A DNA stretch of 50,598 nt, taken from positions 1-50,598 of the forward strand of contig JAHHGS010000093.1 in NCBI GenBank assembly GCA_019359715.1, in the 5' to 3' direction. A program made the position numbers and the translations under genes. The stretch is from Aphanocapsa sp. GSE-SYN-MK-11-07L (GTDB lineage Bacteria > Cyanobacteriota > Cyanobacteriia > Thermosynechococcales > Thermosynechococcaceae). The notes below the pieces were generated by a model. The model was not told the origin of the DNA. It saw nothing but the letters and a program-made list of their open reading frames with translations, and searched no databases. Positions 1 through 2,925 of this stretch are shown one piece after another (position 1 is the first letter of the stretch; each line of letters begins with the position of its first letter).

Positions 1-125
1 TTACCTGCCGAAGTTTCTCAAAAATGACCCGCCGAGGTTGCTGTCATTTGGGTGCCGAAGTTAGTGTCTTTAGGCCGCCGAAGTTAGTGTCTTTGGGCTG
101 CCGAGGTTAGTGTCTTTAAGCACTT
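1..125. mobile_element. Probable end of a Tn7-like transposon (array of transposase-binding repeats)
   Basis: Five imperfect direct repeats start at about 7, 31, 54, 77 and 100, a regular 23-24 bp spacing. The best copies read GCCGAAGTTAGTGTCTTT; the first two are more diverged. The array stops where a recognisable ABC-transporter reading frame begins in mid-domain, as expected where a transposon end has landed in a gene. Tn7-like and related DDE elements carry several ~22 bp TnsB-type sites at each end, so that class is my inference. No transposase lies in the window and the element continues off the left edge, so family and exact terminus are unproven. Confidence 0.5.
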
Positions 126-549
126 TCGACTAGGAAATCCACATCTTTCCTTTGAACAGATTGTCAAAGCCTGCCAGATTGCCCAGATCGATGACTTTAT
201 TAGTCAGTTACCCAATAATTACCAGACGATATTAGGAGAATTTGGGGCGAATCTCTCCGGTGGTCAACGACAACGGTTAGCGATCGCCCGCGCGATCGCT
301 ACCGATCCACCAATTTTAATCATGGATGAATCTACTGCCGGTTTAGATCCGGTGAGTGAATGTCAAGTCTTAGATCAACTGCTTAGCCAGCGTGAGGGAA
401 AGACCACAATTATGATCACTCATCGACCCAGCGTCATTAACCGGGCTGATTGGGTTGTGCTACTGAGTGATGGCCAAATCCAACTTGAGGGCGAACTGTT
501 GACTTTGCGAGAGAAACCTGGTGATCATCTCAAGTTCCTACTCCCTTAA
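121..549 (+). pseudogene. ABC exporter ATP-binding domain, 5'-truncated
   Basis: Only the second half of a nucleotide-binding domain remains. The frame is open from the repeat array: a Q-loop-distal segment, the signature LSGGQRQR (about codons 46-53), Walker B ILIMDES, D-loop and switch histidine (MITHRP), ending at 549. An in-frame stop at 85-87 inside the repeats closes it upstream, so Walker A, the membrane domain and any N-terminal peptidase domain are missing. The sequence resembles exporters of the HlyB/bacteriocin-processing type, and the next gene encodes a double-glycine leader peptide, which fits a peptide secretion pair. An ATG at 322 could start only 75 residues without the signature motif, so a functional product is unlikely. 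The best explanation is disruption by the adjacent transposon end. Confidence 0.8.
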
Positions 550-657
550 CCGTCTGCATATAGTAGACAGCTATAAATCCTTCAGCCCGATTAGTTTGAA
601 TCTAAAGCAAATGCAATCAATGTAGTTAATCTCTGTCATCAAATTAAGGTGAAATAT

Positions 658-1002
658 ATGTCTAAATCAAAAAGTATTTTAAGCTCTGATTTTTTGGCAT
701 CGCTAGAGCCAGGATTGTTAACTCAGCTCTCAGATCAAGAGCAAGAAACGGTAATGGGAGGGAGGCAAAGCATATCAATGTATCCGATGGTCACGTTTTC
801 TTTCTCTGACTCGATTCACCTGATTACTAGCGCTCGTAATAATCAAAGATTAAATTTTTCTAATAATGTTAGGGGTGGACACTTTAACTCTAATTCTGAT
901 ACTAGTTATGAATTGCACAGAACCACCAGCTACACTGTCACCTTGCCTGCATACTTGTTGTCATCAGGATCTGGCTTTAGTATTTTATCTCTGTTCCGAT
1001 AG
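658..1002 (+). CDS. Double-glycine leader peptide, bacteriocin-like precursor
   Basis: A 114-residue peptide with a leader of about 34 residues ending LSDQEQETVMGG. This is the typical leader recognised by peptidase-containing ABC exporters, which cleave after GG during secretion. The remaining ~80 residues are rich in Ser, Asn, Thr and Tyr, have no Cys and no clear membrane segment, and match no bacteriocin family I recognise. The ATG at 658 is preferred to the GTG at 649 because an AAGG ribosome site lies 8 bases upstream of it. It sits 108 bp downstream of the truncated exporter ATPase, so its own exporter is probably lost unless another one in the genome serves it. The leader call is strong; the core function is unknown. 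Confidence 0.7.
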   Translation: MSKSKSILSSDFLASLEPGLLTQLSDQEQETVMGGRQSISMYPMVTFSFSDSIHLITSARNNQRLNFSNNVRGGHFNSNSDTSYELHRTTSYTVTLPAYLLSSGSGFSILSLFR

Positions 1003-1012
1003 GTGTTCTTGG

Positions 1013-1621
1013 CTACTTCGGCTGATTATTTCGCACGAACTCAATCCGCGATAAGGCACTGGTGGCTGTCTCCCGCACGTAAGCGTCAGCCGATTCGTCT
1101 TCGATCAGGGCGGCTAGCACTTCACCGCTGCGGCGATCGCCGACGGAAGCTAAGGCATTGACAATCGAAACCGCTAACCCGATATTGTCGGTTGCCTGGA
1201 GCGACTCAATCAAAATATCTAGAGCCGGTTCGCCAATCTCACCCAGCGCCATGGCAGAGCCAATATGCACAACTGGGTTATCATCTTGCAGACCCGTCCT
1301 TAAGCCTGCTAGTCCTTCGACTGGAAACGGCTCTTCTGGGTAGTTGAGGGCAATCTGAGCTAGGGCTTTGGCGGCGCTGCCGCGCACCGTTACGTTCTCG
1401 CTCTTGGTTAAAGCTTCCACCAGCGGGTCAACGGCATCAAAACCGATCATGCCCAGCGCCTTAACGGCGGCCCGCCGATAGACAACATCTTCATCGTCCA
1501 GTGCCCTCATTAAATGGGGAACGGTCGTTTCGTCGCGGGTTTCAAAGATTTCTAGCATCGCTCGATCGCGCAGATGAGGATTCGGGTGCTTGAGTTGAGC
1601 AAAAAGGGCATCTTGGGTCAT
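1013..1621 (-). CDS. cpeZ: HEAT-repeat phycoerythrin lyase/chaperone subunit CpeZ
   Basis: A 202-residue all-helical protein of PBS-lyase HEAT-like repeats (recurring A-x-x-A-L-G/A-x-I-G helices across its whole length). CpeZ works with CpeY in attaching phycoerythrobilin to phycoerythrin and stabilising the subunits. Length and repeat type also fit CpcF/PecF, the smaller partners of E/F lyases. The CpeZ assignment rests on its position: last gene of a minus-strand series cpeB, cpeA, coiled-coil gene, cpeY, this gene, the order known from phycoerythrin-producing cyanobacteria. It follows cpeY by 32 bp and is likely co-transcribed with it. Acts in the cytoplasm on nascent PE subunits. Confidence 0.82.
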   Translation of the reverse strand: MTQDALFAQLKHPNPHLRDRAMLEIFETRDETTVPHLMRALDDEDVVYRRAAVKALGMIGFDAVDPLVEALTKSENVTVRGSAAKALAQIALNYPEEPFPVEGLAGLRTGLQDDNPVVHIGSAMALGEIGEPALDILIESLQATDNIGLAVSIVNALASVGDRRSGEVLAALIEDESADAYVRETATSALSRIEFVRNNQPK

Positions 1622-1653
1622 AGCAAAAAAATCAAACGGTAACTTCCATTGAA

Positions 1654-2925
1654 TCAGGCTTTTCTTGATCTAGCTTTTGCCTGCACCAGCCAGTCTGCAT
1701 CATTGGCAACCACCTGATGAGCGCTTAAGTCGCCAAACTTTTCTAGCGCCAGCAGAGCCGCATACTTCAGATCCCAGATTTTAGTTTCTAGGCAGGCTTT
1801 TAGGTCGGGAATGGCGCGGCGATCGCCCAGTTCACCGAGGGCGATCGCTGCTGCCGCTCGCGATTTTTGGAACTGGGGCTGCGGATTGTAGAGGGCTTCC
1901 ATGAGCAAGTCGTAGGCGGGGGCGTGTTTGAGCCAGCCCATCAGCTTCATGACATGAAAATGAGCGCCGTAATCCGCCTCTGCTTCTGCGGCGTAGGTGG
2001 CAAACAGAGCCGCCGGGGCCGCCTCGGCGTGGTGGTCAAGCATCGTTTGGGTGGCCAAATAGCAGCGCCCAAAGTCAGTTTCGTAGAGTTCCCGAATTAA
2101 AAAATCTAGACTAGGCGGCTGGTCGTAAGCATGCACTAGCTTCAGATCTTGGGGATGATCGCGCAGGGATTGTTCAATATAGGGCTGGATGTCAGTAAAA
2201 GTCAGTTTGCCTTCTGCGATGCCTGCTTCGCCCAGTTGCCGCAGGGTGCGGAGTCGGAATACTAGTGACACTGGGCAACAAGCAATGTCTGGAATTGCTT
2301 GGTAGTAGCGAACATCAATCAGGTCTTGTAGGGCCAGTCGTCGAGCCACAACATTTGAGTGCTGCAAGAAGCCAACCACTCGTTCCATCAGCGTATAGTC
2401 TTGGCTGAAGTGGCAAACGGCGGCGATCGCCGCGCTGGCGGTCGGCACATCTTCTGCATCGACAAATTTGCGAATGCTCTCTAGGGCTGGCCCATAGTTG
2501 AGCTTCCGCAGGGCATGAATCATCACCCGATAGGTCTGCCCTGGCTTGTCAAGCAACTGGGTAATTTCTGCCAAAATGGCGGGGTCTTGGGTGCCAATTT
2601 CAGCGATCGCCCAGACGGCATTTTCCACCGTGTAGCAATCCTCTTCTGCCAAGCAAGTCCGAATCACGGGTAAAGCAGGTTGAGCTTGCAACCAGCCCAG
2701 CGTTTCCACGGACTTCCGGCGGACAATCCGGTTATCTAAACAAGGGTCAGTGGTTTGGATGGCTCGAATCAAGGCATTGATCGATTGCTCCGTCGGAAAA
2801 TTGACCAAGTGAGAGGCCGCAATATAGCGAGAATCTTCCTGGTTGAGTTCGCTTTGCGGTGTATCCAAGAGGGCGATCGCTTGCTCTTCAGTCAAATTAA
2901 AGAGCTTATTAAACCGTTTTTCCAT
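1654..2925 (-). CDS. cpeY: HEAT-repeat phycoerythrobilin lyase CpeY
   Basis: A 423-residue protein of E/F-type lyase class, with HEAT-like repeats at about residues 50-180 and again at 340-410 and a less repetitive middle. In studied species CpeY attaches phycoerythrobilin to Cys82 of CpeA, helped by CpeZ. Length matches CpeY and is much longer than CpcE (~270), and the location downstream of cpeBA supports it. The ATG at 2925 lies 11 bp after the end of the coiled-coil gene, so the two are probably translated from one message. The opening MEKRFNKLFNLTEEQAIALL looks like the family N-terminus. Confidence 0.88.
   Translation of the reverse strand: MEKRFNKLFNLTEEQAIALLDTPQSELNQEDSRYIAASHLVNFPTEQSINALIRAIQTTDPCLDNRIVRRKSVETLGWLQAQPALPVIRTCLAEEDCYTVENAVWAIAEIGTQDPAILAEITQLLDKPGQTYRVMIHALRKLNYGPALESIRKFVDAEDVPTASAAIAAVCHFSQDYTLMERVVGFLQHSNVVARRLALQDLIDVRYYQAIPDIACCPVSLVFRLRTLRQLGEAGIAEGKLTFTDIQPYIEQSLRDHPQDLKLVHAYDQPPSLDFLIRELYETDFGRCYLATQTMLDHHAEAAPAALFATYAAEAEADYGAHFHVMKLMGWLKHAPAYDLLMEALYNPQPQFQKSRAAAAIALGELGDRRAIPDLKACLETKIWDLKYAALLALEKFGDLSAHQVVANDADWLVQAKARSRKA

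Follow-up and report, generated by a model that had tools for sequence, protein, structure and literature searches.

The first 122 bp of the window, a 50,598-bp stretch of DNA from Aphanocapsa sp. GSE-SYN-MK-11-07L, are almost certainly the left end, upstream of istA, of an IS21-family insertion sequence that is present in about 26 copies and is here inserted in a gene for a C39 peptidase-containing ABC exporter. The remainder of the element lies beyond the left edge of the window. The original prediction, a transposon end with a transposase-type repeat array inside an ABC exporter and with the rest of the transposon off the left edge, was correct as far as it goes. The features at the window start are as follows.

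1–122, minus strand: istA-proximal (left) end of an IS21-family element of high copy number; it terminates at 122 and reads inward, on the minus strand, 5'-TGCTTAAAGACACTAACCTCGGCAG
1–127, unstranded: 127-bp contig overlap common to other copies, the reason the contig starts here; the k-mer size was probably 127
5–15, unstranded: terminal repeat unit 5 (innermost visible), CTGCCGAAGTT
29–39, unstranded: terminal repeat unit 4, CCGCCGAGGTT
52–62, unstranded: terminal repeat unit 3, GTGCCGAAGTT
75–85, unstranded: terminal repeat unit 2, CCGCCGAAGTT
98–108, unstranded: terminal repeat unit 1 (outermost), CTGCCGAGGTT
123–129, unstranded: 7-bp target-site duplication CTTTCGA; partner copy beside the opposite end on contig C157
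123–549, plus strand: 3' part of the interrupted C39 peptidase-containing ABC exporter gene, with the second half of the nucleotide-binding domain

Five direct repeats with the 11-bp core CTGCCGAAGTT and variants of it start at positions 5, 29, 52, 75 and 98, giving spacings of 24, 23, 23 and 23 bp. The predicted array with 23–24 bp spacing is real: self-match of positions 1–122 at period 23 is 66%, whereas 1000 dinucleotide-preserving shuffles averaged 33% and never exceeded 42%. The TAG noted earlier at 85–87 is also present, in frame with the exporter fragment.

The 122-bp end was found at 26 contig ends of the same genome (5.1 Mb, 159 contigs) with 99–100% identity. 26/26 copies agree up to ...TTAAGCA and then differ, which places the exact junction at 122/123. 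Contig edges fall 122–127 bp from this divergence point, as an assembler overlap of 127 bp predicts. The common divergence point and the contig-edge distances together indicate that the window begins in an element terminus, where the assembly broke. The assembler would have failed to resolve the repeated IS21-family element, leaving a contig that begins 127 bp ahead of unique sequence. The window's right edge likewise overlaps another contig by exactly 127 bp. Named genomes, scanned for exact matches to the terminus, gave none.

The opposite end was found by a pattern search for spaced GCCGAAGTT units in the same genome. This second end type (D), located at 21 sites, carries two GCCGAAGTT repeats and reads ...TTTCAGCA, terminating in ...GGTGCCGAAGTTCTGTCTTTCAGCA. 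Read inward, the two ends begin TGCTTAAAGACACTAACCTCGGC and TGCTGAAAGACAGAACTTCGGC and are inverted repeats of one another. The termini are of the TG...CA form (TGCTTAAAGACA... and TGCTGAAAGACAG...), with five repeats at one end and two at the other. Flanks of the window-type (A) end and the D end pair through target duplications: 5 pairs at 8 bp, 7 at 7 bp, 2 at 6 bp and about 4 at 5 bp, whereas shuffled flanks gave 0.009, 0.03, 0.14 and 0.5 pairs, respectively. At 6–8 bp this amounts to 14 pairs against approximately 0.2 by chance, and pairing in the wrong orientation produced 0 pairs at 6 bp or more. Target duplications of 5–8 bp extend across about 17 paired sites. An open frame of at least 200 codons is kept across the join in 12/20 matches listed at 5–8 bp, a few of which are chance 5-bp matches, compared with 11.5% of all cross-pairings. 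A matching end with a 5-bp duplication had been expected at the window site. The opposite end was indeed found, on contig C157, but the duplication there is the 7-bp CTTTCGA and not 5 bp. The repeat-bearing ends of C153, C132, C15 and C49 were rejected as the opposite end, having other termini and being far fewer; it is the D end that pairs by duplications. These ends, at C153 (1–126), C132 (29296–29421), C15 (1–125) and C49 (13922–14047), share the AACTTCGGC repeats but fall into two or more additional end families with termini of their own (...TCATTTTGCA and ...AAATACAGCA). The genome probably harbours further IS21-like elements.

The nucleotide-binding domain was predicted to start in mid-fold after the repeats, and this was borne out. 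The exporter fragment at 121–549 covers just positions 83–137 of the 137-position Pfam ABC_tran model, and C157 carries the remaining half. When the flanks of the window and C157 are joined and one 7-bp copy is removed, a single frame of 733 amino acids results, in which the nucleotide-binding domain is continuous. Taken separately, the pieces match Peptidase_C39, ABC_membrane and both halves of ABC_tran, and an HlyD-type gene adjoins. Insertion of the IS21-family element in the exporter gene cut the nucleotide-binding domain. A short ORF at 649–1002 (plus strand) comes immediately after the interrupted exporter and its HlyD partner (on C157); it encodes a double-glycine-type leader (...LSDQEQETVMGG|RQ...) and matches the CTB-family bacteriocin model NF038167 weakly, below the cut-off (E 6e-4). 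A bacteriocin-like peptide operon comprising this ORF, the C39 exporter and HlyD was probably knocked out by the insertion.

Assignment to the IS21 family comes from genes next to such ends. On contig C146 the opposite end lies directly downstream of the C-terminal half of IstB (PF01695, E 9e-41), in one slightly diverged copy that is itself cut by another repeat. That repeat, about 125 bp long, is shared by the contig starts of C146 (1–126), where it cuts istB, and C61 (1–123), and is a different insertion sequence nested in the IS21 copy at C146. The window array matches DNA beside and upstream of the annotated istA on plasmid pB of Chroococcidiopsis sp. CCNUC1, and its best database matches are IS21 istA/istB elements. 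Intact relatives in other cyanobacteria are full elements of about 2.6–2.9 kb carrying istA and istB between such ends. Their termini are TG...CA, and several of the elements have 5-bp duplications. The encoded proteins score above the NCBIfam cut-offs for the IS21 transposase (NF033546, E 2e-85) and the IS21 helper ATPase (NF038214, E 2e-65). The element is a new member of this family. In relatives with the same end plan istA is upstream of istB; the interior of the present element is missing from the assembly. A search with the IstA of a related element gave no match in the assembly of this genome. The interior contig, a collapsed repeat, may have been lost by binning or length filtering. 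Because the interior is absent from the assembly, we only infer that the window copy carries intact istA and istB.

In published IS21 ends, several direct repeats (L1/L2 and R1/R2) accompany a terminal CA, the duplications are 5 bp long, and two repeats are needed for IstA integration (PMC10122671; PMC11208146). IS5376 and the IS21 prototype resemble the window's element in their direct repeats at both ends, terminal CA, istA/istB plan and low target specificity (PMC10122671; PMC11208146). The prototype has two repeats per end, however, whereas the window's element has five on the left and two on the right. Related elements occur in Chroococcidiopsis sp. CCNUC1 plasmid pB and in plasmids of Leptolyngbya boryana and Acaryochloris. 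Upstream of istA these carry AACTTCGGC-type repeats with a spacing of about 23 bp, and a smaller number of repeats lies beyond istB; the termini are TGC...GCA, and the IstB proteins are 63–79% identical over the C-terminal half. They differ in repeat spacer sequences and terminal bases, and their readable duplications are 5 bp rather than 5–8 bp. The element of Acaryochloris sp. 'Moss Beach' has AACTTCTCC-type repeats instead of AACTTCGGC-type.

In established IS21 biology, IstB prepares the target DNA, and IstA, bound to the end repeats, links the 3' ends at the terminal CA to it (PMC10122671; PMC11208146). By analogy, the five window repeats would be multiple terminal IstA binding sites, L1–L5. 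IstA, aided by the AAA+ protein IstB, would have bound them, joined the CA ends to the target and so put the element into the exporter gene, duplicating CTTTCGA. The outcome that is seen is insertion at many unrelated sites with target duplications of 5–8 bp.

The original prediction had placed a Tn7-like or CRISPR-associated transposon (CAST) to the left of the window. In Tn7-like elements, too, transposase sites form arrays with a spacing of about 23 bp and the ends read TG...CA, Tn7 and CAST elements likewise pair a DDE transposase with an AAA+ helper, and IS21, Mu and Tn7 are mechanistically akin (PMC10122671). Nevertheless this reading is very improbable. The opposite end adjoins istB, relatives of the array flank istA/istB, and the window's end is dispersed in 26 copies; what lies to the left is almost certainly an IS21 element. 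The ends belong to a high-copy insertion sequence with istB; no TnsB is linked to them, nothing was seen of a linked TniQ or Cas, and nothing points to CAST. TniQ (PF06527) had no match in the genome, in a search that lacked a positive control (the control genomes had none either) and with the element interior missing. No tnsB or tnsC was found in the element, and the only Mu-transpos_C (PF09299) gene of the genome, on C61, is unlinked to these ends. The Tn7-like reading fails because this single TnsB/MuA-type gene is outside any copy and, subject to the missing control, because TniQ gave no match. The constant 5-bp duplication of Tn7-like and CAST elements was not seen either: the window site has 7 bp and others 5–8 bp. 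The C61 gene was rejected as the transposase of the window's end, being Mu-type, situated in the flank of the element end on that contig, and followed by its own neighbour that reads as MuB-like. Integrase-core (rve) genes elsewhere in the genome are unlinked to these ends and were also rejected. At C61 5510–8736, the MuA-like gene followed by the MuB-like AAA gene is probably a remnant of a Mu-type transposable prophage.

Two other explanations concern the element itself. A non-autonomous, MITE-like derivative, with IS21 ends but no genes and mobilised by an IS21 copy elsewhere, is unlikely though the least remote of these alternatives. Consistent with it, a transposase gene is visible at one copy only (C146) and the interior contig is absent from the assembly. 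However, a MITE that fits within a read or insert would normally have been assembled, the relatives are full istA/istB elements of about 2.6–2.9 kb, and loss of the interior contig by binning or a length cut-off explains its absence equally well. A solo repeat array with no transposon, such as a dispersed intergenic repeat, is hardly conceivable. Repeats forming a dispersed family had been named as evidence against the original prediction, and they are dispersed, at 26 contig ends, but each copy is an element end and none is a lone repeat. Against a solo array stand the single terminus that all copies share exactly, the existence of a second end type and the duplications between paired flanks; the paired duplications already refute it.

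The finding of an IS21-family end is mostly a correction of the Tn7-like/CAST reading. Since IS21 ends share this appearance, an array of transposase sites spaced by 23 bp is no specific mark of a Tn7-like or CRISPR-associated transposon, and contigs beginning in one often reflect a high-copy insertion sequence at which the assembly broke. The target duplications of this one IS21-family element probably do vary from 5 to 8 bp, mostly 7–8 bp, unlike the uniform 5 bp of IS5376. The range for the IS21 family as a whole is 4–8 bp. A literature search found nothing specific on variation of duplication length within one IS21 element. This variation is the sole unusual feature of the element, and a mildly unusual one. 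If true, it would imply that the distance between the two IstA strand-transfer sites is flexible and is set by target DNA deformed by IstB. The recovered insertions with measured duplications form a small natural data set on the IstA/IstB target stagger.

Further into the window, a phycobilisome alpha/beta pair (PF00502; 3638–4132 and 4226–4780, minus strand) is followed by two HEAT-repeat-like genes (1013–2925, minus strand). The latter are probably bilin lyases, in an ordinary phycobiliprotein operon.
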